This document shows positions 1,428-31,802 of a DNA stretch of 31,818 nucleotides, one piece after another (position 1 is the stretch's first letter; every line of letters begins with the position of its first letter). Made by a program: the position numbers and the translations under genes. This stretch comes from a virus: the IMG/VR virus record IMGVR_UViG_3300010885_062701, positions 1 through 31,818 of that record; one strand, given 5' to 3'. A model generated the notes under the pieces. The model had not been told where the DNA came from and did not search any database. It was given only the letters and a program-made list of their open reading frames with translations.

Positions 1428-1443
1428 GCTCAAGGAGCGTAAA

Positions 1444-4781: not shown

Positions 4782-4784
4782 ATC

Positions 4785-12000: not shown

Positions 12001-12181
12001 TCTCATCAAGGCGCAGGCTGGTATCGAGCAGTTCAGGATCGTCATGGATTCAACGAATAACACTGCTGCCGATGTTGCCGCGTACAGGTTGAATGGTCGA
12101 ATTGTTGTGGTTCCAACAAGAGCGGTAGAATTCATCGCTGTCGACTTTATCATCACACCGGCGGGCGTCGAGTTCGTCTAA
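9071..12181 (+). CDS. 18: tail sheath protein, gp18-like, copy 1
   Basis: This 1036-residue protein starts at ATG 9071 with AGGAG at 9060-9064. The N-terminus (F-R-S-P-G-F-F-E-R-E-I-E, then G-G-L-I-G-A-A, then F-I-R-V-L-G-A-G) is the sheath opening. The C-terminus (A-F-D-R-V-N-V-R-R-L-F-L-E-L-K-R, L-L-F-E-P-N-D, then V-D-F-I-I) is the conserved domain that links subunits around the tube. It is far longer than T4 gp18 (659 residues); the extra length sits in the middle and probably forms surface domains. The 65-base gap upstream (9006-9070) holds only this ribosome site and AT-rich sequence with no hairpin that I can see. A second complete copy follows at 12221. Confidence 0.92.
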   Translation: MSEQIFRSPGFFEREIELTAPGAQPTGVPGGLIGAAASGPAFVPTTVSSFSDFSARFGGLDPDRPATYAANEWLKHKGALTFIRVLGAGANASMSDVATTLTQGVVRNAGFKVTGSTVALPAGDARKTGAVQFLVARHSIPASSTTPSEWKGFPIFSENPSFNPPSIGDTLNIVRGVLMFPTGARGMVLDMTGANSQWSDGGSVIDDVASTDLNAASSNYKKFKFVISSSQGSSFGTTDGYSGLRILTASLNPSANDYFGKVFNTDPKKFQAEQHVLYLDFPIEDELVGLDVTGDSCVAVASGSSNTYLQNFGRFDTRYTTARTPAIISQPFGSLEHELFYFETLTDGESGNALYKVSISNVKASTDPRNPYGTFDVNVRDLYDSDTSPQILETFAGCDINPASQNYVAKKIGDLKVSYNFDASDESEQRLVINGNFPNASRRIRVITAAGLTTGVVPASALPFGFKGIPVVRTSQTLTDTSSALTEGTRTYGAGANALPRLYCSSSVATTLTGSIVPPLPFRFKATKGTVDGSAYIGSPGLLEIPDSRYHWGVKFERLPATASISSAVMNSNDGTEFNPLILSYSKMQGIQKLYALVTGSDADIFNANKFTLARVALSNTSLTDVTGTVEAHMKETAYIRNGVPSTTDYRIADAALGGSRITFASLLSGSANTFNKFAEYAKFSTMFYGGFDGVNILDAASAKLGDRATSTESGGLAAGGVEPIARSGLGYDPAGSSLSNNAVNSYRVASKLMTDKYTVNVNVIATPGVREPLVTDYLARRLSSYALGMYVLDAPAYSDANVRIFEDSALKPNVTKTADAVTARSLNNNYVATYFPDVFVNDTTTNRRVKAPASIAALGALAYSDRVAYPWYAPAGFNRAALDFVTNVEVRLNTSDRDYLYDNRINPIATFPGNGFVIFGQKTLQVSKSAFDRVNVRRLFLELKRVIQDVARGLLFEPNDATTRQSFIDRATPLLSLIKAQAGIEQFRIVMDSTNNTAADVAAYRLNGRIVVVPTRAVEFIAVDFIITPAGVEFV

Positions 12182-12220: not shown

Positions 12221-15200
12221 ATGGCTGCGCCAGGCATAACACTAAACGAGATCGATAGCACCGGTGGTGTAACGGAGGTTCAACCCTCGGGCCGCTCCGC
12301 CGGTGTGATTGGAACGGCAACGCAGGGAACGGCGTTCGTGCCGATCACCTTCGCGAATAACACACAGTTCACAACTGAGTTCGGCAATCCGGATGCGAAT
12401 TATCACGCTCCCTTTGCCCTGTACCAGTGGCTTAGCAACGCCTCAGCTGGAACATACGTCAGGGTTCTCGGCGCCGGAGACGGAAACAAGAGAACGACAG
12501 GCGCCACAAACGCAGGAAGCGTGACAAATGCAGGATTCGTGGTCGGCTCCCGGAAGGTTCAGGTGTCCAACGGTCAGCTCGGCAACAATCCCTACGCGAC
12601 TGCCGGCGGTCTGGAAGGTAGGACGTACTTCCTCGGATGCTACATGTCCGAGTCTGCGGGCTCCTGGTTACTTTCCGAGCCAGGAATCCAGACATCGACG
12701 GCAGCCCAGCCGATCGTTCGCGGCGTTCTTTTCGCAGCGTCGGGAGTTCAGATCACCGTATCAAGCTCAGCGCCGGGAGCGACATCTGATATCTACTCAT
12801 TAGCTGCGACGACTGCCAGCCCTGCAAAAGGCTGGTTCACCGGATCGCTCGATCTCCGGAGCGGAGAGCAGACATTCGTGCTCTTCCTGAACGGACACAC
12901 CGATTCCGCTGGTTACCCAAGCATCCTCACGGCATCATTCAACCCAACTTCCGACTCCTACTTCGGAGCAAAGTTCAACAGCAACCCACTTCTTCTCGAA
13001 GAGCACGGCTACGTCCTCTACAATCACTACGACGTTCTGGACGCTTTCGCAGTCCCAACTGGATCCGGAGTTGCAGCTGAGGCTGCGATCCGTCGTGTTA
13101 GCACGTCAGCCGCTGTCGAAGAGATCGTGTTCTGCCTTTCCGGCTCTCAGTCAAGGAACAACGGAACCACAACATTCCCGAACTACGACGGATTCGAGGA
13201 CAGGTACGGTCATCCGATGACCCCGTACGTAACATCCCAGAACTTCGGTGGGACTCGCTACAATCTCTTCAAGATCCACGCTCGTGGCGACGGTGCAGCG
13301 ACCAATGAACTGTACAGGGTCGCGATCGAAAGCATCAAGTACCCTGCTGCTGGCTCTTACGCTACGTTCACCGTGAAGATTCTTAGCTTTACCGGAGAGG
13401 ACGGCTACGCGACCGTATACGAGACATACTCTGGATGCGATCTTGATCCTGATAGCGACAACTTCATTGGAAAGAAGATCGGTGACCAGAACACCTACTT
13501 CGATTTCGATCGTACCGCTGATGCCCAGAAGATCATTGAGGAAGGACTCTACGGCAAGGTCTCACGTCGGGTCAGAGTTGAGCTCTCTGATGAAGTCATC
13601 AACAAGGTCATCCCGTCGAACACTATTCCCGTCGGTTCACGTGGTCTCTACCACCTAGTGACCTCTGGGTCTGGTTTCATGTCGACTGGTTCATCGGGCC
13701 CGTCGGCTCACCTCAACGTTCCCCTGACGAACGCGCGTGAGGCGCCGGTCTTCTTCCGTCGCAGCATCAACGTAGGAGACGTTGCCGGTGGCGCGAACGC
13801 CACGGGCGAGAGCAAGCTCTACTGGGGACCCCAGTTCGGCCTCTACAACTCAACGACTCGTCCTAACGATGGAGTCTCGACCTCCACCGAGACACTCGGT
13901 GCTGGCGGACTTTCAAGCTACACCAAGTACTTCCCGAAGTACCACACGACCTATCAGAACCCGTGGGTCGGTGACAATGATGGCGCAGCCACCGTCAACG
14001 GCTCCGTGGTGGACGCTGACCTCTTCAACAGGAACCTCTTTACGCTTGAGAACATCCAGGTTCAGACAAGCTCCGGCGGTACTCTCGACAGAGACCGTTG
14101 GGACGAGGCTGTGTACCAGAGGGACGGAATTCTTGACGCCAGCCTCGGTGGACGTTTCATCGACACAACGATCGATTTCCCGTCCAGTACTCCGTCATCT
14201 TACCTCAAGTTCGTGACCTTCATGCAGGGAGGCTTCGATGGTCTCAACATCTTCGATGCAGATAAATTCTACATGCGTGATGCTGCGGCTCGTCGAGAGA
14301 TGGACTACAGCAACCAGGGTCAGCTGAACGGACCGACGGTCGCTGCCTATCGCAAGGCGGTAGACATCATGGGTAACAAGACTTACTCGGACATCAGCGT
14401 CCTCGCGATTCCGGACACTCGTCACCCCGCGATCACCGACTACGCTCTCTCGGCGATGCAGACAAAGTTCGATGCTCTTTACATCGCCGATGTCGAGCTG
14501 AAGGACGATAACAACAACTTCGTGACTGCCTCCATCAACGCCGGGTCTTCATACCCCAACGTCAACGTCGCGTTCACATCAACGAGGTTCAAGAATCGCA
14601 GCCTCAACAGCTCATTCGGTGCTGCTTACTTCCCGGACGTGAACGTCAGCGTTGACCCGGGAACCGGCGTAGCAGTTAGCACACGCCTTCCAGCTTCGAC
14701 CCTGGTCCTCGGCGCCTACGCGCAGAACGATCGGATCGGATTCACTTGGAGCGCACCGGCAGGCTACACAAGAGCGGTTATTCCTGGAAACTCCCTTAGC
14801 ACGATACTCAACAACGATAACATCAACACCGTTTACGATGCTGGTATCAACCCGATCGTTTCGGTTCCTGGCGCGAATATCGTGATCAATGGACAGAGGA
14901 CAACTCTCGTTGAGGGCTCGGCTCTTGATCGTGTTAACGTCCGTCGTCTGCTCATCGAGGTTCGTCGTCGAGTGAAGGCTGTTGCTTACGGTCTTCTTTT
15001 CGAGCCGAACAGAGAGTCGACCATCGCTCGTTTCAATGCTGCCGTTACACCGATAATGAAGCAGATCCAGTCCCAGCGCGGTGTTGAGAGGTATCGCGTG
15101 CAGATTGACACCACCACCACCACACAGGCTGACATAGAGAATAACACGATTCGTGGTAAGATCTACCTGCAGCCGACAAAGACCGCAGAGTTCATCTCGA

Positions 15201-15238
15201 TTGATTTCGAGGCGACAAATGCTTCAACCTTTGTCTAA
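12221..15238 (+). CDS. 18: tail sheath protein, gp18-like, copy 2
   Basis: This 1005-residue protein starts at ATG 12221 with AAGGAG at 12207-12212. It is a clear paralogue of the protein before it: G-V-I-G-T-A against G-L-I-G-A-A, R-V-L-G-A-G in both, the central G-C-D-L/I-x-P-x-S-x-N and K-K-I-G-D in both, F-Y/M-x-G-G-F-D-G-L/V-N-I in both, and L-D-R-V-N-V-R-R-L plus L-L-F-E-P-N near the end. It therefore keeps both the N-terminal arm and the C-terminal linking domain and looks functional. The two copies have diverged widely outside these blocks, so the duplication is old. A mixed sheath, or different copies for different tail zones, is possible; which copy is the main sheath cannot be told here. 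Confidence 0.92.
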   Translation: MAAPGITLNEIDSTGGVTEVQPSGRSAGVIGTATQGTAFVPITFANNTQFTTEFGNPDANYHAPFALYQWLSNASAGTYVRVLGAGDGNKRTTGATNAGSVTNAGFVVGSRKVQVSNGQLGNNPYATAGGLEGRTYFLGCYMSESAGSWLLSEPGIQTSTAAQPIVRGVLFAASGVQITVSSSAPGATSDIYSLAATTASPAKGWFTGSLDLRSGEQTFVLFLNGHTDSAGYPSILTASFNPTSDSYFGAKFNSNPLLLEEHGYVLYNHYDVLDAFAVPTGSGVAAEAAIRRVSTSAAVEEIVFCLSGSQSRNNGTTTFPNYDGFEDRYGHPMTPYVTSQNFGGTRYNLFKIHARGDGAATNELYRVAIESIKYPAAGSYATFTVKILSFTGEDGYATVYETYSGCDLDPDSDNFIGKKIGDQNTYFDFDRTADAQKIIEEGLYGKVSRRVRVELSDEVINKVIPSNTIPVGSRGLYHLVTSGSGFMSTGSSGPSAHLNVPLTNAREAPVFFRRSINVGDVAGGANATGESKLYWGPQFGLYNSTTRPNDGVSTSTETLGAGGLSSYTKYFPKYHTTYQNPWVGDNDGAATVNGSVVDADLFNRNLFTLENIQVQTSSGGTLDRDRWDEAVYQRDGILDASLGGRFIDTTIDFPSSTPSSYLKFVTFMQGGFDGLNIFDADKFYMRDAAARREMDYSNQGQLNGPTVAAYRKAVDIMGNKTYSDISVLAIPDTRHPAITDYALSAMQTKFDALYIADVELKDDNNNFVTASINAGSSYPNVNVAFTSTRFKNRSLNSSFGAAYFPDVNVSVDPGTGVAVSTRLPASTLVLGAYAQNDRIGFTWSAPAGYTRAVIPGNSLSTILNNDNINTVYDAGINPIVSVPGANIVINGQRTTLVEGSALDRVNVRRLLIEVRRRVKAVAYGLLFEPNRESTIARFNAAVTPIMKQIQSQRGVERYRVQIDTTTTTQADIENNTIRGKIYLQPTKTAEFISIDFEATNASTFV

Positions 15239-15807: not shown

Positions 15808-15844
15808 ATCTGGTCCATGGTATATTTACTATCATGGACCAGAT
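15808..15844 (+). promoter_or_regulatory. 15-bp hairpin covering the HNH endonuclease start codon
   Basis: Arms at 15808-15822 (ATCTGGTCCATGGTA) and 15830-15844 (TATCATGGACCAGAT) pair over 15 positions with one G-U and a 7-base loop. The ATG at 15834 is in the right arm, so readthrough RNA from the tube gene would hide the start. No Shine-Dalgarno sequence is visible in front of the ATG. The loop region TATATTTA matches 6 of 8 bases of the T4 late promoter. A transcript starting inside the loop would lack the left arm and free the start. T4 intron endonuclease genes are controlled in this way. Confidence 0.72.
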
Positions 15845-16640
15845 TTCTTTTAAGTGCCCTTCTTGCGTAGACTATTCGACCGACAGCCTGGATTCGCTTC
15901 GAATCCACTGCCAGAAACGCCATGGAATCACCGCACGTGATCTCTACGTGAGCTTGTTTATTCCTGGCGGCCAAGAACCCACGTGCGGCTGTGGGTGCGG
16001 GACGACGACCAAGTTTAACTCCCTTCAGAAGGGATTCTCGGGGTACATTCTCGGACATGCATCTCGCGTCAAGAATAATTGGGGAAATAATAAGGCTGCG
16101 CTGGCTAAGAGCCTTGAAGCGCGTCGCAAAGAAGAGCGATGGGGTTGTAATCCGTGGAATCGAGGTAAAACGAAAGAAAATGACTCCGATTTCGCGAAGT
16201 TATGCGAAATTGCGTACGGATCTGACAAAGAAAGAAAGAGAAAGTCAGAAATGATGACGAGACATTGGCAGACCGGGGTCATCGTTCCGCTCACCGGCTC
16301 GGCTCATCCGCAGTGGAAGGGCGGGACATCGACAATCGGGACGCTGTGCCACGGCAGCTCGCGACTCTACAAGCTCTGGAAGTTCCCAGCCCTGCAGCGA
16401 GCAGGGTTCAAGTGCGAGCGTTGCGCCGCGACCGACGATCTCCACGTCCATCACAGCGAGGTTCGTATGGCGGAGATCATCCATCGGTGCGCCCCCACGT
16501 CGGATGAGATCAGCTGGGAGGATCAGGCAGCGTGGGTCGAGCGGGTGATCGACTGGCACGTTGAGATGATGCCCACCGCCGAGGTTCTCTGCCATCGCTG
16601 CCACGGTGAGGAGCACCCATCACTTAACTTTGATCCGTGA
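15834..16640 (+). CDS. free-standing HNH homing endonuclease with N-terminal zinc finger
   Basis: This 268-residue protein begins with a C2H2-type finger (C8-x2-C11-x13-H25-x4-H30), followed by a C-G-C-G-C element near residue 52 and G-H-A-S, common in phage HNH proteins. The middle (about 85-150) is Lys/Arg-rich and has N-P-W-N-R-G-K-T-K-E, like the DNA-binding NUMOD-type repeats. The HNH nuclease is C-terminal: C194-x2-C197, H204-V-H-H207, and C253-H-R-C256-H-G-x-x-H261. It would cut DNA of relatives lacking the insertion and spread by repair. It interrupts the tube to gp26-like gene order. By eye the middle part is more A-rich than the neighbouring tail genes, fitting horizontal origin. 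Cleavage site unknown. Confidence 0.86.
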   Translation: MDQISFKCPSCVDYSTDSLDSLRIHCQKRHGITARDLYVSLFIPGGQEPTCGCGCGTTTKFNSLQKGFSGYILGHASRVKNNWGNNKAALAKSLEARRKEERWGCNPWNRGKTKENDSDFAKLCEIAYGSDKERKRKSEMMTRHWQTGVIVPLTGSAHPQWKGGTSTIGTLCHGSSRLYKLWKFPALQRAGFKCERCAATDDLHVHHSEVRMAEIIHRCAPTSDEISWEDQAAWVERVIDWHVEMMPTAEVLCHRCHGEEHPSLNFDP

Positions 16641-16647
16641 TTTTTTT
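16619..16647 (+). terminator. weak possible terminator after the HNH gene
   Basis: A short stem ATCAC (16619-16623) with GTGAT (16637-16641) is followed by seven T (16641-16647). The 5-bp stem and 13-base loop are poor, but the T-run directly at the stop codon is suggestive. Confidence 0.3.
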
Positions 16648-16701
16648 ACTTGTCTCTCCTTTCCTTAAGAATTGTATTAGCAATTTCTAGGAGAGATTCA
16701 A

Positions 16702-17544
16702 GTGGCATCAGAGACAGATCGTAGTGCATTATTCGGCGGTGCAGTTCCGGCCGGTATCCAAACGAAGGACGTCATGCGTGACGATTTCGGTTTTGAGGTT
16801 CCAGTTGAGTCGATTCCACTTCCCTCGAACGGCGCAGTTTATCCGGCTGAGTCTCCCCTTCATGGAAGGGAGACGGTCGACATTCGGGCGATGACAGCTC
16901 GTGAGGAGGACATTCTCACATCCAGAGCTCTGATCAAGAAAGGAACAGTTATCACCGAGCTCATCAAGAGCTGCCTCATGGACAAGCGAATCAGCGTTCC
17001 CGACATGCTTGTCGGAGATCGCAACGCTCTGATGATTGCTCTTCGAGTGACTGGATACGGCGCCGAGTACAACGTTGAGGCTGATTGTCCGAAGTGCAAC
17101 ACTCGCTCCAAGCAGGAGTTTGATCTCGGAGCGCTTCCGATCAAGCGTCTTTCGATCGATCCCGTCTCTCCTGGCCAGAACGTATTTGAGTTCAAGCTTC
17201 CTGTCACCAAGAAGACCGTTCATTTCAAGTTCCTCACTGGTCGAGATGAGGAGGATATCAACGTTGGCCAGGAACGCGCGAAGAAGCAGGGTGCCCAGGC
17301 TGATAATATCATCACGACCCGTCTCCAATATGCTATCGTTTCAGTCGATGGTAAGACTGATCGCGGTGCGATCAACGGCTTCATCCGAAATATGCCCGCT
17401 CGCGACTCCATGGCCCTGCGTAAGTTTATCGATGCGAATGAGCCTGGCATCGAGATGAAGGGAAACCTTGACTGCCCATCCTGCAGCGAAGTAAGCGAGG
17501 TGCGGATGCCGTTGGGTGCCAGCTTTTTTTGGCCTGACACCTGA
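16702..17544 (+). CDS. 26: gp26-like baseplate hub / tail assembly protein with zinc ribbon
   Basis: This 280-residue protein starts at GTG 16702, with AGGAG at 16689-16693. The opening V-P-V-E-S-I-P-L-P-S-N-G and the later D-I-R-A-M-T-A-R-E-E-D-I-L-T are typical of the T4_baseplate (gp26) family. Two Cys pairs, C129-x2-C132 and C258-x2-C261, probably bind one zinc. T4 gp26 is shorter (208 residues) and acts in hub assembly without being clearly seen in the finished baseplate, so a chaperone-like role is reasonable. The 3' end overlaps another reading frame and contains seven T (17524-17530) ten bases before the final stop region; see the frameshift entry. It precedes the tape measure gene by two small genes, the slot normally held by tail assembly chaperones. 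Confidence 0.7.
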   Translation: MASETDRSALFGGAVPAGIQTKDVMRDDFGFEVPVESIPLPSNGAVYPAESPLHGRETVDIRAMTAREEDILTSRALIKKGTVITELIKSCLMDKRISVPDMLVGDRNALMIALRVTGYGAEYNVEADCPKCNTRSKQEFDLGALPIKRLSIDPVSPGQNVFEFKLPVTKKTVHFKFLTGRDEEDINVGQERAKKQGAQADNIITTRLQYAIVSVDGKTDRGAINGFIRNMPARDSMALRKFIDANEPGIEMKGNLDCPSCSEVSEVRMPLGASFFWPDT

Positions 17545-18122: not shown

Positions 18123-21100
18123 ATGGATCCCGAATTACAGAAGCAGCAGCTTGAGTTAGCCAAGCAGATGCTCGAGGCGCTTCAGAGTCAGGAGCGCACG
18201 CTTAGAGCCATCCAGGAGCTGCAGGCCGGTCAATCAGGCATACATCAGGAGACCGCTGTCGCGATCGAAGAGCACGCGGACGCAATGTCACAGCTCAATG
18301 AGCAGCAAAGCGCCTTCAACGGAGTGATGGAAGAGGGCTCGAAGCAGAACGAAACGTTTACCCAGAGTCTTCAGGGTTGGTTGAACAAGGGCAACTCAAA
18401 GCTGACCGAGGGGTTAAGCCTTGCAGTTGGTCAGCTTTCAGAAAACTTCAGCATGCTGGCTGACGTTATCACGAATCCCCTGCAGGCATCGATGGGATTC
18501 CTGTCAACATTCTTTGATTACATATTTGAGCTTGCCAACGAGCGTATCCAGGATATGCTCCATTTCCGGGAAGCTCTAGAGAGGGTTCGTAAGGAGTTCG
18601 GAAGCTTCACCGAGAACACCTCAAAGCGAGTGAGGGAGACGTATGACGGCTTCGGAGCCAGCCTGAAACAGGCTGCCGGTGGCGTGAATGTCTTTGCATC
18701 AAAGTTTAACATGGGCATGGAGGGCGCGATCGAGCGTCTCGATCTCGTCCGCGAGCTTGCGGGCGCGATGGGTCCCACTCTCGATGTCCTCGGTGATGAG
18801 TTCAACGACTCTGCTGCGAATCTGTACGTCATGCGTGACGCGCTCCTTTTCAACGAGCAAGCGCTCAAGAATGTCTCAACAATGTCGATCCTGAGCAGCA
18901 AGTCGTTGAAGCAGTTCAGCGATGAGACCCTTGCCAGCGTGAATAAGATCGGCCGCCAGCTCGGTATCTCGTCCAAGGTCCTTGGAAAGGATGTCGGCGC
19001 GTTCCTCTCAAACTTCAAGTCGCTTGGTCGGATGACGGGAGATTACGTAACAGAGATCACCAAGGCCGCCGCTTACACCCGTAAGCTCGGTATCGAGCTC
19101 AATGAGCTTATCGGTCTGAACCAGAAGTTCGATGACTTCGAGACGGGAGCTGAGGCTGCGGCTCAGTTAGCCGCTGCATTCGGTATGGTGCTGGATCCTG
19201 TCAAGCTCATTCAGGCCCAGAATCCCGCTGAAGTTCTAGATGATCTTCAGAAAGCGTTCGCAGCGACAGGAAGATCTTTTGAGACACTTTCTCGTCAGGA
19301 TAAAGCTCTTCTTACGTCCCAGTCGGGTCTCACCGAGGAGCAGGCAGCCCTTGCATTCTCAGCCAAGGGTCTCTCGATGTCATACGACGAGGTGAAGACG
19401 GCCGCAGACGGGGCAATGAAGGGACATAAGACGCAGGAAGAGATCATGCGCGATCTCGCCGATAGCATCGAAAACGTGATAATACCCATTCAGAGATTCA
19501 CGAGCTTCTTCGATGCGTTCATCAAGGGCTTTATGGATGCCTTTGATCGTTCGAAACCCGTCCAGGACGCCGTCAACAATATCGCCAAGGCGCTGCTGGA
19601 AACTTATTACGCAGGAATGAGGACGTTCTCAGCATTCCTACAGGTGCCAGGCGTTACGAAAGCCCTCCAAGGTCTTCTCGACGTTGTCACAACGATCGGT
19701 GATATTTTCTCGAAGGTTGCTCTTGAAATTGAAAAATTTACAATAGCGATGTCAACGGATCCGAAGAACGCTGCAAAAAACTTGATGACGGGAATCACAT
19801 CCGTCATCACGGATGGTTTCAATGGTCTTTTCACCGGTAAAAACGGGCAACCCTCGATATTCGACAATTTGATGGAAGGTCTCACCCAGACGTTTCTCGC
19901 GGTCGCAGCAGCGTTGCCGGGAATCGTCCTCGGTCTCGTTCGATCATTGAAGACTGTGCTTTCGAATCTTACGAAAACAATGCGTCAGGCATTCACGAAA
20001 CCGGCCGACGGTTCCCCATCGATCGGTCAGGGGCTGCTGGAGGGCATAAAGGACGGTTTCAGTGAGCTTGTCAGGGAGCTTCCCTCCTTCATGCCGATCC
20101 TGATCGAATTCGGGTCCGAGCTCGTTGCTTTCCTGGGACGTGCCATCCAGGAGTTCCCGTTCGCGACGTTGTTCGTCACTGGCGGTCCTATTCTCACAGC
20201 AGCGTCTGGAATTTTCGGGCAGCTAAAAGATACTGTGATGGGCCTCTTCACCGGTGGCGGAACAACAGAGGAGATCTCTGAGGCTGCCCGGCAGGCGGAT
20301 GAGAGCGCCAAAGCCCAGAATGATCTTGCTGCTGCGCTTAACAAGCAAGGTGCTGCTATGACAGGCACGGGTCCGGATAGCTTCGGTGGACTGGTCGGCA
20401 TGTTCGGGGGCGCTGCGACAAAAGCAGCTGAGTACGGAGCTATTGCTCTCGGCATCTCATTGATAGGTGCATCGATCATCAAGCTCGTGAGATCAGTGCT
20501 GGAGCCTCCTGAGGGTGGCGGAAAAAGTCTCATTCAGCTTTTCGCTGACGCAGGAGCGACGCTTTCGACCGTGAATGCGGACGGGTTGCAGAACGCTTTC
20601 TTGATCACTGGGGCTGTGCTCGTGGCCGCTATGGGCGGCATAGCTGCGATCTTGATGGGAGTCGCGTCGATGGACAAGGGAGACCTGTTCGCGAAATTGG
20701 CAGGCGGCGCCGTTTCTGTCGCGGTCCTCGCTGGCATCTCGCATATCTTCGATGCGGTTATTCCGAAAGTTACGGCGATGATCTCTTCTATGACCACGTA
20801 TCTTAGCAGTCCAGAGTTTGCTGCTCAGCTGAAGAACATCAATTCTTTGGCCGCGTCCGTGAAACCCGAGGACATCGACGCAATGGGTAATCTCGGAAAG
20901 ATATTCTCGAGTGTTGGAACAATGATGGGAACGATGATAAAGGTCGCGACGGATCTTAACTCGCTTCCTGGCATTCCGACGGTGGTCGCGACAACCACGA
21001 ATCCCGACGGAACGATCACTGAGGTCATGGGCGAAGAATCTCCATCTTCAAAGATCGCAAGAATCATGGGATACATCTCTTCCATGGTCGGAAACAAGGA

Positions 21101-22418
21101 CGAGAAGGTCGGAATCGTCGGTGTCATAAGCAAGTTCGAGGATTCACTCGGTGGCGATCTTGCGACAGCAACACAGAAGTTCCAGACCCTAGCTCTCATC
21201 CTCGATCCGATGTCAAAGATGATGAGCACGTTCGGAACCGCAGGACTCGATTTCATCAAGACTTCGGCTAGTCTCGCAGCTGGTGGCTCCACGGCCACAG
21301 CCGAAGATTCGATGGACCAGGTTCGTAAGTTCATCGGCGCTGTCGGAGGCGGTGCGGTTGATATTCTCAACGACATTAACAGCAGGGTGAATCTATCGAA
21401 AGATCAGGTCGACGCTCTTTCTGGTAAGGTGAGCCTCATCTCCACAGTCGCTACATTCTTGGGCTCATTCGGAAAAAGCATAACTGAGCTCCTTAAATCA
21501 GTGCAAGCGTTTGATGTATCTGGAAACGTCGTTTCCGCGATGTCATCATTGAACTCTCTCCTGTTCGGAACGGGAAGCGGAGTCATCGAAACTGACACCG
21601 AATCGATCCCGGTCGAGGCATCCGACGGAATCATTCAGATGATGACGAAAGTCATCAATAATTTAGCGACAGCGTTGAACGATCCAGCAAATGCGATAGA
21701 TCAGACCCAAATCAGCTTCTTCACCGAGATATTTGCTCCCTCGGGCGCGCTCATGGGAATGATCTCGGCGATATCAGCGGCGTCCAAAGTTGCTACCACT
21801 GACATCGAGAGCGCTAAAACTTTCCTAGACACAGTCGCTGGTAACGGCGATCTCACGGCGAGCTTCCCAACCCATCTGTTCAACGCGCTCAACAGCTTCA
21901 AGGCTTTCGATGGTATCGACCTTGAAGCTCTCGCGAAAAGAGAAACCAACATGAAGGGTTCGTTCAACGTGCTCGGCACCTATATCGCGGGCATGACCGA
22001 AAAGCTCCCAGGCGACGTGGCAAAGCGTGTGAACGCGTCACTGGAGCAGCTCCAGCAGATCAAGGCTGCGATGGCGGAGACGGCCAAAGTGCTCGAAGCT
22101 CTCGATACTGTGAGACTCGACGCTGCTGTCGAAGGGTTCGGCACCAAGATGAACGTCGTGAAGAAGAAGTTCGACATAAACAACGGCGCTGTCTCGATCA
22201 CCGTCAACATGAACGTCACGATGAGCGCGCAGAAGATGGCGGAGACACTCGTCCTCGATGGATTCGTCAAGCCCAACGTTGAATTTGCCGATTATCTCCA
22301 GTCTCCGGACTCCGTGCGTAGCAACCAGTACGATTTCTACACGACAGAGTACAAGCCCGGAAGCCCGGAGAGCTTGCTCGAAACCAGAAGAAACGATGAC
22401 TCATGGAGAGGAGAATGA
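18123..22418 (+). CDS. 29: tail tape measure protein
   Basis: This 1431-residue protein starts at ATG 18123 with GGAAGG at 18106-18111. It is the longest gene here and has the usual tape measure layout: Gln/Glu-rich coiled coil at the N-terminus (residues 1-60), long helical stretches, a cluster of five hydrophobic segments (near residues 590, 677, 769, 825 and 860) and an Ala/Ser-rich helical C-terminal half. Tape measure proteins set tail length at roughly 0.15 nm per residue, so a tail near 200 nm is predicted if most of the protein acts as the ruler. The hydrophobic cluster may insert in the host membrane during DNA entry. No peptidase or muramidase motif was noticed. T4 gp29 (590 residues) is the functional counterpart. 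CATAGTTA (18093-18100) upstream resembles the AATAGTTAAG boxes. Confidence 0.9.
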   Translation: MDPELQKQQLELAKQMLEALQSQERTLRAIQELQAGQSGIHQETAVAIEEHADAMSQLNEQQSAFNGVMEEGSKQNETFTQSLQGWLNKGNSKLTEGLSLAVGQLSENFSMLADVITNPLQASMGFLSTFFDYIFELANERIQDMLHFREALERVRKEFGSFTENTSKRVRETYDGFGASLKQAAGGVNVFASKFNMGMEGAIERLDLVRELAGAMGPTLDVLGDEFNDSAANLYVMRDALLFNEQALKNVSTMSILSSKSLKQFSDETLASVNKIGRQLGISSKVLGKDVGAFLSNFKSLGRMTGDYVTEITKAAAYTRKLGIELNELIGLNQKFDDFETGAEAAAQLAAAFGMVLDPVKLIQAQNPAEVLDDLQKAFAATGRSFETLSRQDKALLTSQSGLTEEQAALAFSAKGLSMSYDEVKTAADGAMKGHKTQEEIMRDLADSIENVIIPIQRFTSFFDAFIKGFMDAFDRSKPVQDAVNNIAKALLETYYAGMRTFSAFLQVPGVTKALQGLLDVVTTIGDIFSKVALEIEKFTIAMSTDPKNAAKNLMTGITSVITDGFNGLFTGKNGQPSIFDNLMEGLTQTFLAVAAALPGIVLGLVRSLKTVLSNLTKTMRQAFTKPADGSPSIGQGLLEGIKDGFSELVRELPSFMPILIEFGSELVAFLGRAIQEFPFATLFVTGGPILTAASGIFGQLKDTVMGLFTGGGTTEEISEAARQADESAKAQNDLAAALNKQGAAMTGTGPDSFGGLVGMFGGAATKAAEYGAIALGISLIGASIIKLVRSVLEPPEGGGKSLIQLFADAGATLSTVNADGLQNAFLITGAVLVAAMGGIAAILMGVASMDKGDLFAKLAGGAVSVAVLAGISHIFDAVIPKVTAMISSMTTYLSSPEFAAQLKNINSLAASVKPEDIDAMGNLGKIFSSVGTMMGTMIKVATDLNSLPGIPTVVATTTNPDGTITEVMGEESPSSKIARIMGYISSMVGNKDEKVGIVGVISKFEDSLGGDLATATQKFQTLALILDPMSKMMSTFGTAGLDFIKTSASLAAGGSTATAEDSMDQVRKFIGAVGGGAVDILNDINSRVNLSKDQVDALSGKVSLISTVATFLGSFGKSITELLKSVQAFDVSGNVVSAMSSLNSLLFGTGSGVIETDTESIPVEASDGIIQMMTKVINNLATALNDPANAIDQTQISFFTEIFAPSGALMGMISAISAASKVATTDIESAKTFLDTVAGNGDLTASFPTHLFNALNSFKAFDGIDLEALAKRETNMKGSFNVLGTYIAGMTEKLPGDVAKRVNASLEQLQQIKAAMAETAKVLEALDTVRLDAAVEGFGTKMNVVKKKFDINNGAVSITVNMNVTMSAQKMAETLVLDGFVKPNVEFADYLQSPDSVRSNQYDFYTTEYKPGSPESLLETRRNDDSWRGE

Positions 22419-25743: not shown

Positions 25744-26037
25744 ATGGCCACCAGCAGGTATCAGAAAGATCAGATCATCGGGGCGCCTCAACGGCTCGCT
25801 TCCTCACAGGCGATCCTGCGAATTCGACAGGCAATCGCGAATGGTTCAATAGCGACCCGTGAGATCACCACCACCGAAGCGCAACGTCTCGATCACATCG
25901 CTGGTGATCTCTACGGAGATGGCAAGCTCTGGTGGGTTATCGCCATCGCTTCTGGGGTCGGCTGGTGGTTGCAGGTCCCGCCCGGGACTCGTCTCCTTGC
26001 TCCGACAAACGTGAACTCAGTTCTGGAGCTTGTGTAA
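25744..26037 (+). CDS. 53: baseplate wedge protein, T4 gp53-like
   Basis: This 97-residue protein starts at ATG 25744 with GGGGAGAG upstream (25733-25740). The core D-H-I-A-G-D-L-Y-G-D-G-K-L-W-W-V-I-A-I-A-S-G-V-G-W-W (split here by motif) and P-P-G-T-R-L-L-A-P-T is the LysM-like signature of gp53-type wedge proteins. T4 gp53 is about twice as long (196 residues), so this is a minimal form. It would join neighbouring baseplate wedges. The next gene starts two bases after its stop. Confidence 0.83.
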   Translation: MATSRYQKDQIIGAPQRLASSQAILRIRQAIANGSIATREITTTEAQRLDHIAGDLYGDGKLWWVIAIASGVGWWLQVPPGTRLLAPTNVNSVLELV

Positions 26038-26039
26038 CC

Positions 26040-29000
26040 TTGCCACGTTCACCACTTCTCAATGCTGCAACCAACGAGCTTGCTCAGTACTTCGGCGCGA
26101 TTACCGACGCTGATTACATCGACAGGACATGGGAGGCACGCCTTGTCGCCCGCGCGAATAGAAAAGCTGCTTCTACCACAACAAATCTACAGAGCTCATA
26201 TCGAACCGATCTCGATAAAATTAACGCGCTCGGGGACGTGATCAGGGTCGCTGCTGAGCCGAGGACAGGATCTCCATCAGCAGAGCATATCTCTGATCTC
26301 ATCAACGGAGCACTCAGCATCAGCGCCTTCCTCGGAAATGTGAATAATGTTGATCAATTGAGCGTCGAGGACAAGTACGGTTCACAGTTCAAGATCGCTG
26401 GTATCGGAGAAAAGAAGAGCATCTTTTCGGGCGCAAATTTCGAAAAGATTAGCGGAATCGGAGCTCCGAGCAAGATAAACACGTCCCCGACGGAACCCAC
26501 GAATCAGGCTCCGAACGTGTACGCTGTAGCAGTCGCGAATCCAGCTATGGGACCAGCGACGAGGGACATGGGACCGATCGAGGTTTTCATGAACGCGATT
26601 CCGACGCTTGAACTGTCGAAATGCGTTCCATATGTGAACGTTGAGCTTGTCACCTCACGTCCAGCGACGGGTGCGGATGGCAATACGGTCGCCCCGACTC
26701 TGCTCAGGTTTCTCAACCCACCGGGACTCGGGTCTGCCGACTCTGCGATGTTAGGCGCTCAAGCGACGCCAGTGGGATCCGAGGTTCTCGATTTTGGAAT
26801 CGGAACACGATCTGGCATGGAGCTTTTCACAGCTCCTCAGACGCTCGTCAACATGGACGCTCACGGAGCGGAGTACGTACCGGTTATCGATCGACTTCGC
26901 CCTCTCGCCTCCCTCGGTGAGCTTAGCGTCTCTGTTAAGATGCAGAAGAACACCTCATCATTCTCACAGATCAGGATGGAGATCACGGTACATGATCGAT
27001 CTCGACTTCGTGAGATCGCTGATCTCGTCCGACCTGATCTCTACGGAAGAACATTCATCGACGTCACTTACGGGTGGTCACATCCTGACGGGGGACTCAA
27101 ATCAAGCAACTCGTTCGGAAAGTTCCTTGACGCTTTGAAGGTGGAGGGTCGCTACAGGATTGCGACATCAAGTTACAACTTCGAGGAAGGCGGAGGAGTA
27201 AAAATCTCTCTAAATCTCTTTTCAGTGGGAAGCACGGATCTTCTAAGCTTATCAACCCGAGCAACTCGGCAGTGGCAGCATGATCTTGAACGCATAGTTC
27301 GGAAAGTGAAAGAAGCCCTAGCGCTCGTTCGAGCTTCGGGCCTCCCTGGTCCAGGGATGGCAAAGTACGATTTCGTGAATTCAATCACCGATCCAACATC
27401 ACTCATTAAAGCTGCGAGCGATAGCAGCTTCATGAATGCTCTTGACTCCCTTCAGGAGCAGAAAGGAAAGGGCATCACTATGGATAAGAGCGATGCCATA
27501 GTGAATGCTTTTGCTGACGCTTTCGGAGAGGTGACTCTGAGCAAGGGTGCGTGGAAAGCGAAACCAGGGACAAATGGCACAGTTTTTGAAATCGCTGATA
27601 AACTAAAGACAAGCTACACGGAGATGGTCGGAAAAATTCCAAAAATGGGAGATGATGGCATCTCAGATGATTTTTTCACGGATCTTGAGGGACGACGTGC
27701 CGGAGGTTGGTACGACTCGAATGGAGGCACGGCACAGCAGGCACTGGATTACGTGAAAGGTAAGAACCCGGCCGAATCGGGCGGTTTCTCATCGCTGGGT
27801 TCGATTTTTATGTCACTCGTCGCGAATCCGCTTGCTGATTCAGGTCAGTACGAGGAAGTTCAGGTCATCTTTTACCCTCTCAATGATTACGCGGGCGCTC
27901 TTCACGGCTGTCCCCTAAGCTGGTTTCCGATCAGCAAGAACAAGCTCAGCTCCTATGTGTCCGAGTTCGTGACCAAAAATCCAGAGATGTCGCTCCATCA
28001 GATGATTGAGCTGCTCAACAGTAGATTCGTTGGGTTTCCTGTCGACCCAGCTTACATGATGGCAGATTTTTACAACAAAGATAAGGCTTCGAAGGGAACG
28101 GCTGAGTTTGCCAAGGGCAAGAACGCAGCTTCATTCTTGGCGACCCAGGAGGAACGCTTAGAGAAAGTTGGTATCTACGAAAAGAAATTCATTCAACCGA
28201 AGCTTGGAATTTTCGTTGAGGGAGCTCCTCTTCTCGACGCGCGTGGAGAGAAGCTTCGCTACTCGGATGGAACAGCAAAGACAATAATAAAGATTCATGT
28301 CTTTGACTCAAGCGCAACAGCCACCAGAACTCTCGGTGAAATGCTCACGGCAGCTCGTGATGACCAACTCGGGGTGATAGTCGGACCGGTCTCTGATGCA
28401 ACACGTGAGGCAGTCGGCAGCCCGGGTAAGGAGTTCATCACTCAAAGACGTCAGGATCTCAATGCGGTCCTTGAAGCCGGTGAGAAAGCTGGATTGCTGA
28501 AAAAGCTTGACACCTCAAACGTTAAAGGAAGCGACGGAAAGCCCATTGAGGGTCTGCCACCGATGTACTCGGTAGCGGGAGACTACAATGATATCAAACG
28601 TCTTGTGTCTGCTGGAATGCCAACCTTCACCTACGGTTCGATGAACTCGGGAATAATCAACGCTTCACTTGCGAGCGTATCGAATGCCGGCTTTGGTAAT
28701 GCCATGATGGTAAGGTCATTTCAGGCTCCCGGCGAGGTGGCACCTGATGTCGTTGACGGCGGAGTTCCCATGCAGCTCATTCCAGGTTCACTGAGTCTCT
28801 CGACGTTCGGTTGTCCGCTCTTCTTCCCGATGCAACGTGTTTTCGTTGATTTCGGAACTGGAACTTCAATCGACAACGTGTACTTCGTGCAAGGAGCCGA
28901 GCATAAGATCGGTCCATCAGGATTTAAGACTGACGTCAAGCTCAGCTACGGTGAGGGCTTCGCGACCTACACAAGCTTGAGCCAGAATCTCGCGATGCTT

Positions 29001-29546
29001 GCCGTTCGGGTGAAGAATGCAATGTCAGAGAAAGCCCCGAGTGACGCTTCGCCGACTGCGCCACCCGCTCCCGTGAAACTCTCTGGTCCCCGGGAAGAGA
29101 AGAACGCGATTGATCGCGCAAAGATAAAGGAGCGCGAGTTCCTGCAGGCCGCTGGTCGCGCGATCGGCAAGTCACTCGCGCCCGCCGCACGCGTTGCAAT
29201 CGAAGTTCAGATGAAGATCGATGCTGAGCTGCAGAAGGTGAAGGACAGGATCGCGCTTGAGGTTGAGGAGGCAAAGGTCGCAGCCCAGGCGAAGATCGAG
29301 GCGATGATACCGGAGGAGGTCAAGATCGCCGCCGCTGAAGCGCAGAAGAAAGCTGCCGAGGTTGCTGCGAAGTACGCAGAGGTCCAATCTGACATCGAGC
29401 AGGCGAAGAGAATCGTAGAGCTCATCTTGAACGCTGACGAGTACATCGCCGCGATGGGAGCTGAAGCTGCCGGGATCGTCATGGCTGCTGCGAAAGAGGA
29501 ACTCGACCAGCAGCTGAAGGACAAACCGCCCAAGGCTCCGAAGTGA
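26040..29546 (+). CDS. very large baseplate hub-like structural protein with helical tail
   Basis: The frame is open from 25932, but that part overlaps the gp53-like gene and reads as shadow (Arg/Cys-rich). The likely start is TTG 26040, giving M-P-R-S-P-L-L-N-A-A-T-N-E-L-A-Q and 1168 residues; GGAG at 26025-26028 is somewhat far, so coupling to the upstream stop is likely. Residues about 315-350 have H-D-R-S-R-L-R-E-I-A-D-L-V-R-P-D and Y-G-W-S-H-P-D-G-G; about 935-955 has F-G-T-G-T-S-I-D-N-V-Y. I associate both blocks with hub-like proteins (gp27 or gpD type) of large marine myoviruses. The last 150 residues are Ala/Lys/Glu-rich and form a predicted long coiled coil. No lysozyme domain like that of T4 gp5 was noticed. 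Confidence 0.68.
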   Translation: MPRSPLLNAATNELAQYFGAITDADYIDRTWEARLVARANRKAASTTTNLQSSYRTDLDKINALGDVIRVAAEPRTGSPSAEHISDLINGALSISAFLGNVNNVDQLSVEDKYGSQFKIAGIGEKKSIFSGANFEKISGIGAPSKINTSPTEPTNQAPNVYAVAVANPAMGPATRDMGPIEVFMNAIPTLELSKCVPYVNVELVTSRPATGADGNTVAPTLLRFLNPPGLGSADSAMLGAQATPVGSEVLDFGIGTRSGMELFTAPQTLVNMDAHGAEYVPVIDRLRPLASLGELSVSVKMQKNTSSFSQIRMEITVHDRSRLREIADLVRPDLYGRTFIDVTYGWSHPDGGLKSSNSFGKFLDALKVEGRYRIATSSYNFEEGGGVKISLNLFSVGSTDLLSLSTRATRQWQHDLERIVRKVKEALALVRASGLPGPGMAKYDFVNSITDPTSLIKAASDSSFMNALDSLQEQKGKGITMDKSDAIVNAFADAFGEVTLSKGAWKAKPGTNGTVFEIADKLKTSYTEMVGKIPKMGDDGISDDFFTDLEGRRAGGWYDSNGGTAQQALDYVKGKNPAESGGFSSLGSIFMSLVANPLADSGQYEEVQVIFYPLNDYAGALHGCPLSWFPISKNKLSSYVSEFVTKNPEMSLHQMIELLNSRFVGFPVDPAYMMADFYNKDKASKGTAEFAKGKNAASFLATQEERLEKVGIYEKKFIQPKLGIFVEGAPLLDARGEKLRYSDGTAKTIIKIHVFDSSATATRTLGEMLTAARDDQLGVIVGPVSDATREAVGSPGKEFITQRRQDLNAVLEAGEKAGLLKKLDTSNVKGSDGKPIEGLPPMYSVAGDYNDIKRLVSAGMPTFTYGSMNSGIINASLASVSNAGFGNAMMVRSFQAPGEVAPDVVDGGVPMQLIPGSLSLSTFGCPLFFPMQRVFVDFGTGTSIDNVYFVQGAEHKIGPSGFKTDVKLSYGEGFATYTSLSQNLAMLAVRVKNAMSEKAPSDASPTAPPAPVKLSGPREEKNAIDRAKIKEREFLQAAGRAIGKSLAPAARVAIEVQMKIDAELQKVKDRIALEVEEAKVAAQAKIEAMIPEEVKIAAAEAQKKAAEVAAKYAEVQSDIEQAKRIVELILNADEYIAAMGAEAAGIVMAAAKEELDQQLKDKPPKAPK

Positions 29547-29581
29547 TGTGAAAAAGTAGGGTGGTCTCGTTAGGGTTGCTC

Positions 29582-30757
29582 ATGCTATCAATCTCGAGAT
29601 ACGCCCTTAACTCACCCAAGAACCTTGTCTTCGAAGGTGGTTCATCCCGTTGGGAGTCGGAGACTCAAGGATCCTGGATGTTAGGCGACCCTCAGGCATC
29701 GATGTCTGTTATCGCTCTCTTCGAGACTCTCGGGATAGAATCACCCGCACCGATCCCTCCGGAGTATGAGAGATCGATGGATGGCCTCGCGCGTGGCCAA
29801 GTTCCGTGGCCCCTTGTCATTCCGATCGGTGCGCTCCGGGATCACGCTGAACGTGTCAGCAGCATCCTCGAGGAAGCTCTGGAACGTCTCGAGGGCTACG
29901 CAGATGTCATGGCTCGCTCACGCCGCGTGCTCGAGGCCCTTCGACCCTGTAGGATCGATCTCGCAGCGCTTCGGATCTGCCAGACAGGATCGTCCTCTCA
30001 CATTCTTGATTCCTTCGAACCAGGACCTGATTTCATGGTTCAACCACCGGTCTACTCCCATGCGACCGCAACGGGTCGACTCACGGTGAAGGAGGGCCCG
30101 AGGATCCTCACGTTGCAGAAGGATCATCGTCGGATTCTGTCGAGCAGGTTTGACGGCGGTCAGATGATGCAGATCGACTTTGTGTCTCTCGAGCCCCGAG
30201 TCCTTCGCTTGCTTCGAGCTGGTGTTGCACCCATCGACATCTATTCCGACGTCTCAGAACGTCTCGGGGGGGCCGCGAATCGCAGGCAGGTGAAGCTTGC
30301 CACGCTGAAGATGCTTTACGGATCTTCACGGGCTGGTGTAGCCGAGGAAGTCGGAAATCTTAGCTCCAGCATGGTGAAGCAGATTGAGGATTACTTCGGA
30401 CTTTCAACCCTTCGGGCACGTCTCGCATCAGATCTGGGACGAAGTGGTATGATCAAGAGTCACTGGGGCCGGCCGCTCCCGGAAGCTCGTGACCAGCATC
30501 TTCTCGTTTCACACTTCACGCAATCCACAGCTGTTGACGTCGCGCTCGGAGGATTCGGTGACGTCTTGGAACGTGTCAAGGCACTGGATCTCGATGTCGT
30601 TCCCTGCTACGTCCTGCATGACGCGCTTCTTGTTGATGTTCATCCGGGCTCGATGGAGCAGCTGATGGCAATTTCTGACGAAGGAATAGATGTCGAGGGC
30701 TTGGGACACTTCGAAGTTTCCCTTTCACCGGCCTATGTATCACAGGAGACTGCATGA
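29582..30757 (+). CDS. polA: compact family A DNA polymerase (palm and fingers)
   Basis: This 391-residue enzyme is about the size of the polymerase part of Klenow. Motif A is D199-F-V-S-L-E204-P-R206 (E. coli DYSQIELR). Motif B is R234-R-Q-V-K238-x3-L242-x3-Y246-G247, giving equivalents of R754, K758 and Y766, with Leu in place of Phe762. Motif C is H346-D347. Other family A blocks are present: T-A-T-G-R-L before motif A, H-W-G-R-P-L-P and F-T-Q-S-T-A-V-D-V. D199 and D347 are the expected metal ligands, so it should be active. No 3'-5' exonuclease motifs are seen. ATG 29582 has AGGG six bases upstream; GTG 29561 in the same frame would add seven residues. T4 itself uses a family B polymerase. 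Confidence 0.88.
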   Translation: MLSISRYALNSPKNLVFEGGSSRWESETQGSWMLGDPQASMSVIALFETLGIESPAPIPPEYERSMDGLARGQVPWPLVIPIGALRDHAERVSSILEEALERLEGYADVMARSRRVLEALRPCRIDLAALRICQTGSSSHILDSFEPGPDFMVQPPVYSHATATGRLTVKEGPRILTLQKDHRRILSSRFDGGQMMQIDFVSLEPRVLRLLRAGVAPIDIYSDVSERLGGAANRRQVKLATLKMLYGSSRAGVAEEVGNLSSSMVKQIEDYFGLSTLRARLASDLGRSGMIKSHWGRPLPEARDQHLLVSHFTQSTAVDVALGGFGDVLERVKALDLDVVPCYVLHDALLVDVHPGSMEQLMAISDEGIDVEGLGHFEVSLSPAYVSQETA

Positions 30758-31194
30758 GCATTCGTGATAACCTGAAATCGAAGTACCGGAGCTTCGGAGA
30801 CAACCCACCACGATGGGCGGGAAGCGGACTCGGTCGTGCTGATCGTGACCCCGACGGATTGCTCAAAGGCTTGGGTCTTTCGAGATTCAGGGGTAAGGGT
30901 GAGGACGGACTTCAGGACATATACAATATCCTTGAGCTCGCGATAAGATCAAGCGTCCTCAACGGTCTCTACACTGGAATCAGCAAGCGTGAGAGCCAGG
31001 GACAGGTCATCGTTGAAGCTGCGGCTGATCTGTACCGCTTTGGTTCTGGCCAGGCTGTCATGATCAGATTCATCCGTGCCACGCTCGCTGCCGCTGACAA
31101 GCTGGGCTGGATCGCGATCCCCAGCGGTCTCAAGACGAACGTGACAAGCTCAGGAACAGGTGTCGTTATTAGTTGGGAAGGGTTTGCAAAATGA
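30754..31194 (+). CDS. hypothetical protein coupled to the polymerase
   Basis: This 146-residue protein starts at ATG 30754, overlapping the polymerase stop by ATGA, so they are likely co-translated. I do not recognise it. The N-terminal 50 residues are Gly/Arg/Asp-rich (W-A-G-S-G-L-G-R-A-D-R-D-P-D-G-L-L-K-G) and probably flexible; residues about 50-120 look like three helices with a mixed hydrophobic pattern; the C-terminus is a likely beta pair. No Cys, no membrane segment. A DNA-binding or polymerase-associated role is a guess from position alone. Confidence 0.72.
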   Translation: MSIRDNLKSKYRSFGDNPPRWAGSGLGRADRDPDGLLKGLGLSRFRGKGEDGLQDIYNILELAIRSSVLNGLYTGISKRESQGQVIVEAAADLYRFGSGQAVMIRFIRATLAAADKLGWIAIPSGLKTNVTSSGTGVVISWEGFAK

Positions 31195-31217: not shown

Positions 31218-31802
31218 ATGATGAACGAACGCGAACTTACCGACCTCTGGACAAGCTACACCAAACTCGTTGACAAGATCGATCGCGGTGACGGTCTCAC
31301 TCGGATGATGGAAGATCTCGGTGAGAGACTCCTCATGTGTCCCGCTGAACCTCGAAATGACAGTCCCGGCTGCGAGCCGGGTGGTCTCATCCAGCAGGCG
31401 ATCACTGTCGCAAAGGGCATGAAGAAGCTCAATGATGGTTTCGGTATGGGAGCTTCGACGGAGTCCATCCTTCTTGTCGGTCTCCTCCACGAGCTCGGCA
31501 AGGTCGGCAACCTCAAGGAATCGTACTTCGTTCCGGAGGAGGAGAGCTGGCGTCGCGAGAAGCTCGGCGCTTTCTACAAGCCCAACGAGGGCATGTCACG
31601 AATGACGATTCCGGAGCGCTCGCTCTATCTCCTGCAGCATTACGGCGTCCATCTCACCGAGGAGGAGTTCATGGCGATCCGTGGTCCGAGCCGTCCGCCT
31701 GATTGGGTCGAAAGTCGTCTGGCTCCGACCGCCGAGCCAACGCTCACAATTCTCCTTCGCTCCGCACGTGATATTCTCGTCAGAAAGGTTGGAAGCGAAT
31801 AA
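31218..31802 (+). CDS. HD-superfamily-like protein with altered metal-binding residues
   Basis: This 194-residue protein begins at ATG 31218; the ATG at 31221 is equally possible and better spaced from AAGG (31213-31216). It has the frame of a phage HD-type hydrolase: P-G-G-L-I-Q-Q-A-I-T-V (residues 54-64), S-x-L-L-V-G-L-L-H91-E92-L-G-K-V-G, R-S-L-Y-L-L-Q-H-Y, and L-T-E-E-E-F-M-A-I-R-G. In active family members I expect G-L-I-x-H and H-D; here those are Gln60 and Glu92. If the alignment is right, two of the metal ligands are replaced and the protein may be inactive or use another chemistry. Relatives in phages are usually called HD domain or nucleotidase proteins. Confidence 0.62.
   Translation: MMNERELTDLWTSYTKLVDKIDRGDGLTRMMEDLGERLLMCPAEPRNDSPGCEPGGLIQQAITVAKGMKKLNDGFGMGASTESILLVGLLHELGKVGNLKESYFVPEEESWRREKLGAFYKPNEGMSRMTIPERSLYLLQHYGVHLTEEEFMAIRGPSRPPDWVESRLAPTAEPTLTILLRSARDILVRKVGSE

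Follow-up and report, generated by a model that had tools for sequence, protein, structure and literature searches.

The window, by which we mean the whole 31,818-nucleotide stretch of DNA analysed here (a 31.8-kb IMG/VR record with T4-type capsid and tail), encodes a 391-amino-acid family A DNA polymerase, called mini-PolA below, in a frame that runs from an ATG at position 29582 to a TGA ending at position 30757. The window stops short of the genes for the FEN-type nuclease and for DNA polymerase III (Pol III), and both were read from relatives. Gene order was taken from G003, which is 99.99% identical to the window across 21 kb and extends further, and from the 142.9-kb relative G001. Residue numbers in mini-PolA were related to those of E. 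coli Pol I by alignment with the protein taken from NC_000913, in which the numbering was verified. The features of the locus are as follows.

25932-29546, + strand: large upstream gene with a 1204-aa frame, assigned to the baseplate region by its position; hypervariable edge of the cassette (38% identity to G001)
29582-30757, + strand: mini-PolA, a 391-aa, exonuclease-free family A DNA polymerase of the divPolA1 type (frame, alignment and model)
29582-29776, + strand: N-terminal ~65 residues of mini-PolA, a probable stripped remnant of a 3'-5' exonuclease domain with no DEDD residues (structural alignment; boundary approximate)
30176-30199, + strand: motif A, DFVSLEPR, with the metal ligand D199 (D705 in E. 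coli) and the steric gate E204 (E710), both invariant in 45 homologues
30281-30322, + strand: motif B or O helix, RRQVKLATLKMLYG, with R234, K238, L242 (the 762 position) and Y246 (homologue conservation, model and E. coli mapping)
30617-30625, + strand: motif C, HDA, with H346, D347 (D882) and A348 replacing E883 (homologue conservation and E. coli mapping)
30754-31194, + strand: small, fast-evolving ORF of 146 aa, whose start overlaps the mini-PolA stop as ATGA
31218-31802, + strand: HD-type metal-dependent phosphohydrolase-like protein of 194 aa, a conserved cassette member (weak match to phrog_28876, E 0.0026; 90% identical in G001)

The gene order in G003 and G001 is baseplate-region genes, mini-PolA, small ORFs, the HD-like protein, a gp32-type single-stranded DNA-binding protein (SSB), UvsX, the FEN-type 5' nuclease, the DnaB helicase and ribonucleotide reductase (RNR). 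The order SSB-UvsX-FEN-DnaB downstream of mini-PolA recurs in G008 and in Flavobacterium phage vB_FspM_immuto (immuto), and mini-PolA was present at 31 of 31 helicase loci, counting loci with at least 7.5 kb of upstream sequence. The structure of the 146-aa ORF was predicted with a pLDDT of 92, and the model had no match among solved structures (best Foldseek E 0.4; Z 6.1), a result that does not show a new fold; despite the high pLDDT, the same values led us to reject the ORF as a known processivity factor. The RNR large-subunit gene of G003 (L022, 26195-29152) contains an in-frame insert past residue ~295, which is intein-like and has an HNH-like motif.

Alignment with E. coli Pol I paired R668 with R166, D705 with D199, E710 with E204, R754 with R234, K758 with K238, F762 with L242, Y766 with Y246, Q849 with Q314, H881 with H346, D882 with D347 and E883 with A348. 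The two metal ligands, Asp705 and Asp882 in E. coli, are thus kept as Asp199 and Asp347, and the equivalents of Glu710, Arg754/Lys758/Tyr766 and His881 are present as well, which places the protein in family A by its motifs. A previous sequence-only reading had described a 391-residue family A polymerase with L242 at the place of Phe762, and both the alignment and the Klenow/Taq-like structural model bear this out. Its statement that motifs A, B and C are intact holds for D199, E204, R234, K238, Y246, H346 and D347, but not for the E883 position, which is A348. Profile searches gave matches of different strength: mini-PolA matched the phage DNA polymerase profile phrog_17 with E 1e-13 and Pfam DNA_pol_A (PF00476) with 24.0 bits, under the curated cut-off of 34.3, and the relative L009 reached 63 bits with PF00476, above this cut-off.

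An AlphaFold model of mini-PolA, built on a 42-row homologue alignment, had a pLDDT of 94.4 and a pTM of 0.92. Its top match among solved structures was the Taq Pol I large fragment (3lwm; Z 23.6, 355 residues aligned, rmsd 4.3), and the Klenow fragment 1kfs aligned over 381 residues with Z 22.0 and rmsd 4.2. Residues 234-245 form one helix at the place expected for the O helix. As judged from the model, mini-PolA has the right-hand polymerase fold of Pol I. With E. coli and Taq Pol I (Klenow) it shares the palm-fingers fold (Z 22-24) and motifs A, B and C; unlike them, it is only 391 aa long, has no FEN domain and a stripped exonuclease, and carries Leu at 762 and Ala at 883. The absence of exonuclease motifs noted earlier was confirmed, as no DEDD residues are present. 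Because the whole-length structural alignment pairs model residue 1 with Klenow residue 352, the N-terminal ~65 residues of the model suggest a leftover of the exonuclease domain, which would have been stripped rather than being simply absent. For the thumb, the comparison covered length alone: 165 residues precede R166 in mini-PolA and 344 precede R668 in Klenow.

Homologues were gathered by IMG/VR scans using the mini-PolA protein, its alignment and the neighbouring helicase. The scans yielded ~45 distinct homologues, nearly all of them 350-430 aa long when complete. R166, R183, D199, E204, Y221, R234, K238, Y246, G247, R297, Q314, S315, H346 and D347 were invariant in these ~45 sequences. 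Position 242 was Leu in 35, Ile in 7 and Met in 3 homologues and never aromatic, and position 348 was Ala in 42, Ser in 2 and Glu in 1. The dN/dS ratio of close pairs was ~0.05-0.15, a rough value as dS exceeded 1, and by this rough measure mini-PolA is under purifying selection. Since ~45 homologues retain the catalytic residues without exception and dN/dS is this low, mini-PolA is not a chance occurrence. In one homologue (L140, 3686-4894), a single in-frame stop splits the gene into 302- and 100-aa pieces; a sequencing error, a pseudogene and recoding are candidate causes.

Among the replication genes compared between G001 and G008, mini-PolA was the least conserved (46.5% identity, versus 81% for Pol III alpha, 89% for DnaB and 82% for UvsX), and between G001 and L089 it was 52% identical, compared to 83-95% for SSB, UvsX, FEN and DnaB. 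When the window was compared with G001, the upstream gene was 38% identical and the genes downstream of the polymerase ~90%. The upstream baseplate-region gene, mini-PolA and the 146-aa ORF (25932-31194) make up a fast-diverging block adjoining these ~90% identical genes, and this block is possibly a recombination hot spot. As mini-PolA sits at its edge, part of the divergence of the polymerase may be due to recombination instead of relaxed constraint.

In a family A tree, the 42 aligned mini-PolA rows formed one clade (SH-aLRT 99), separate from bacterial Pol I, T7, HMO-2011, SPO1-type PolA and the 777-aa PolA of immuto. The tree took in the mini-PolA-like proteins of immuto, Microcystis phage Mel-JY01 (HMM match E 5e-13) and LR756508, and left out the published divPolA1 genomes LR796625, MK892584 and MK892784; immuto, Mel-JY01 and LR756508 formed a clade of their own (SH-aLRT 100), and its sister link to the mini-PolA clade was weak (SH-aLRT 78). 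The PolA proteins of the podophages HMO-2011 and CRP-1 were among the best phage PolA sequence matches (26-28% identity). In contrast to mini-PolA, they are ~680 aa long, have an N-terminal region (annotated as a 3'-5' exonuclease domain in HMO-2011) and Phe at 762, and belong to another phage type with ~55 kb genomes.

The lineage that carries mini-PolA consists of widespread aquatic T4-like viruses of bacteria. The description of the genome as T4-like was confirmed by a Gp23 capsid match in the window (E 1e-22) and by Portal_T4 (gp20; 3e-77), a T4-type terminase (Terminase_6N) and a gp21-type protease (Peptidase_S77) in G001. On this gene content, the window virus is a T4-like myovirus of the Far-T4 type. 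We did not file it as a close relative of T4 because no virus record searched contained the gp43-type family B polymerase (DNA_pol_B, PF00136), a search for which had been suggested in the earlier reading. Scans of bacterial genomes returned only three loci: two mini-PolA homologues on contigs of metagenome-assembled genomes (MAGs), and one bacterial Pol I. The 108.9-kb contig PBIO01000013.1 (L035), binned as a Halobacteriovorax MAG, is a phage of the mini-PolA lineage; a host clue and a binning error are both possible.

The sequence-only reading had proposed that the lineage either replaced gp43 or has an additional polymerase. G001 encodes a DnaE-type (family C) Pol III alpha of 1222 aa with PHP, palm, finger and HHH domains. 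Pol III alpha was also found in G008 and, among 19 additional relative records of which some had been picked for carrying it, in 15; at least 11 records encode both Pol III alpha and mini-PolA (G001, G008, G016, G017, G019, G020, G021, G022, G023, G024 and G028). The Pol III alpha gene lies ~15-28 kb downstream of mini-PolA, among nucleotide-metabolism genes. The metagenome that yielded G003 also contains a 65.6-kb contig that shares 143 nt, at 95.8% identity and within the RNR gene, with the end of G003. This contig encodes a Pol III alpha that is 90% identical to the G001 copy; because of this overlap, Pol III alpha is most likely encoded by the phage of the window too, or by a strain very close to it. 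No Pol III was seen in G009, G018 and the Halobacteriovorax contig, but these records end ~14-24 kb downstream of mini-PolA, so this absence is not informative. In G025 (the 68-kb L155 record), which contains mini-PolA and 59 kb downstream of it, no Pol III, PolB or second PolA was found. Since Pol III alpha is co-encoded, we conclude from gene content that mini-PolA is an additional polymerase, and we rejected the replacement of gp43.

Proofreading had been expected from another protein. A stand-alone DEDD exonuclease can be rejected for this function as far as Pfam profiles reach, which leaves room for divergent exonucleases: PF01612 was found in 0 of 18 records and PF00929 in 1 of 19 (G021 only). 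The motif HHDHEH[C/H]DH is a criterion for an active PHP domain (PMC12926913). All 8 full-length copies of the phage Pol III alpha retain it intact as HHDHEHCDH, and the palm residues of this enzyme are intact too. The PHP domain is thus likely to be the proofreader, an activity deduced from the motif. The parallel drawn with Rhodothermus phage RM378, a distantly related phage (tail tube 36%), holds in that its polymerase and exonuclease are separate genes. It fails for the family, since the RM378 enzymes are of family B (PF00136, 2e-33; PolB-type exonuclease PF03104, 3e-14), and we rejected RM378 as a family A precedent.

Taken with its neighbours, mini-PolA is probably an accessory, proofreading-free polymerase of a Far-T4-type lineage, namely the polymerase half of a split Pol I, filling gaps together with FEN while Pol III alpha copies the genome; we regard this reading with reasonable, not high, confidence. 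Copying of the genome would most likely fall to the DnaE-type Pol III alpha that the virus encodes, whose PHP domain would proofread, and mini-PolA, the FEN-type 5' nuclease acting in trans and the gp32-type SSB would work as a split Pol I: mini-PolA, presumably active, would extend 3' ends into short gaps and FEN would trim the 5' side. Such gaps would arise at Okazaki fragments, in patches left by excision repair and in the recombination intermediates that UvsX makes, and the stripped exonuclease region and shortened pre-palm stretch would fit short, distributive synthesis. Because FEN is separately encoded in the same cassette, gap filling by a split Pol I is the simplest mechanism. In bacteria without Pol I, a solo FEN is almost always present (PMC12926913). 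As in the bacterial division of labour between Pol III and Pol I (PMC12926913), these viruses encode a DnaE-type polymerase with an intact PHP motif, together with a PolA and a FEN; unlike in bacteria, PolA and FEN are separate, virus-encoded proteins, and the PolA has no proofreading domain.

Genes for repair speak for gap filling as well, since G001 encodes the UV endonuclease UvdE and an Fpg-type glycosylase (15833-16849 and 56917-57726), whose products need filling. Several observations count against it: the FEN and Pol III genes were read from relatives of the window, G025 has no second recognised polymerase, the scanned subset of G001 proteins yielded neither a primase nor a ligase, and UvdE is rare (3 of 18 records), for which reason we rejected UvdE-coupled repair as the main role of mini-PolA. 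The nearby UvsX is equally compatible with recombination and with Okazaki work, which also weighs against the gap-filling reading. G001 further encodes ThyX, ThyA, thymidine kinase and a glutamine synthetase-like protein.

Two proposals that give UvsX a larger part are unlikely, and we rate them alike. In one, mini-PolA would be a recombination polymerase that extends the 3' ends of UvsX D-loops, starting recombination-dependent replication or break repair before the replicase follows. The presence of UvsX and a gp32-type SSB in the cassette favours it, as does a 1042-aa protein of G001 (111110-114238) that joins a metallophosphatase to an SMC/Rad50-like ATPase, like a fused T4 gp47 and gp46, that is, Mre11/Rad50-like. 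However, the cassette also contains FEN, which D-loop extension does not need, and T4 performs this extension with gp43 itself. In the other, similarly doubtful, mini-PolA would be a dedicated fork-starting polymerase that extends the 3' end of a UvsX D-loop or of a primer and hands over to a swappable replicase of family A, B or C; if true, this would account for the constancy of the cassette across changes in replicase family.

That mini-PolA is itself the main replicase in place of gp43, with Pol III alpha as the auxiliary, seems improbable to us. It heads the conserved cassette of SSB, UvsX, FEN and DnaB, Pol III alpha lies ~15-28 kb off, G025 has no other recognised polymerase, and the divPolA1 account of Yutin et al. 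2024 (PMC11348598) remarks that the role of the regular polymerases is less obvious in view of their genomic context. Against this, mini-PolA has no proofreading domain, a DEDD exonuclease in trans is missing from nearly all records, and the protein diverges far more rapidly than Pol III alpha and the helicase do. Moreover, among isolates whose cassette is related, the larger polymerase changes family (a 777-aa PolA with exonuclease in immuto, PolB in Mel-JY01) and the mini-PolA-like gene stays, so a helper with an exchangeable partner fits better than a replicase. Least of all do we expect a translesion or error-prone polymerase for damage tolerance, for which the lack of proofreading, the aliphatic residue at 762, Ala at 883 and the repair genes UvdE and Fpg in G001 could be cited, since Leu at the 762 position of Taq Pol gives higher fidelity and a lower rate (PMC6302109) and the steric gate E204 and the key O-helix residues are invariant.

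This type of polymerase, as far as the divPolA1 section of Yutin et al. 2024 (PMC11348598) describes it, is already known as divPolA1, first reported in 2024: a divergent PolA of 14 phages of 155-190 kb, immuto included, encoded beside a regular PolA, PolB or PolC, with conserved palm catalytic residues, an inactivated exonuclease and a truncated thumb. Mini-PolA resembles the divPolA1 of immuto, so described, in its place upstream of the same SSB-UvsX-FEN-DnaB genes, in being additional to a regular polymerase (for the window's own strain, only via the adjoining contig) and in its inactivated exonuclease, of which an N-terminal remnant with no DEDD motif is left. It differs from the immuto and Mel-JY01 proteins in that its clade keeps E710, R754 and H881 and has Leu, Ile or Met at 762, whereas in those two proteins position 710 is His, 754 is changed, 881 is Tyr and 762 is Phe. 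Because positions 710, 754 and 881 are altered, the Mel-JY01/immuto branch may have lost or changed its activity, which also weighs against the gap-filling reading. In Mel-JY01, the mini-PolA homologue (20398-21624) is annotated as hypothetical, and the protein annotated as "DNA polymerase I" (L169, 25793-26833) is a FEN-type 5' nuclease (PF02739).

What this analysis adds is a much wider sampling, a signature at positions 762 and 883 and a link to a PHP-bearing Pol III alpha. Measured against the 14 genomes in the published divPolA1 section, which does not discuss residue 762, divPolA1 becomes a lineage-wide gene with ~45 sequences, whose active site carries a definable signature of Ala at 883 together with an aliphatic 762 position. 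Leu at 762 has been associated in the literature with slower, often temperate phages (PMC6302109), an association that the sequence-only reading had invoked. The association itself stands, but we rejected a temperate lifestyle for this lineage, as no tyrosine integrase (the one type searched for) was found in 18 records. Leu762 is fixed here in what is probably an accessory enzyme. Leu at 762 in a metagenomic PolA thus need not mark a replicase or a temperate phage, and since the PolA of these viruses is probably not the replicative enzyme, ecological inference from this residue calls for caution.

Some further features of the window lie outside the replication genes. Two tandem, very long tail-sheath paralogues of 1036 and 1005 aa (9071-12181 and 12221-15238) are both present in relatives too. 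Between the tail tube and the baseplate hub lies an HNH endonuclease-like ORF (15834-16640), which looks like a mobile insertion because the corresponding stretch is much shorter in G001. Near the capsid gene (465-5852), LysM and peptidoglycan-binding proteins surround a 511-aa and a 600-aa protein with weak nucleotidyltransferase matches; the G001 counterparts of these genes had no match in G009 or the Halobacteriovorax contig.
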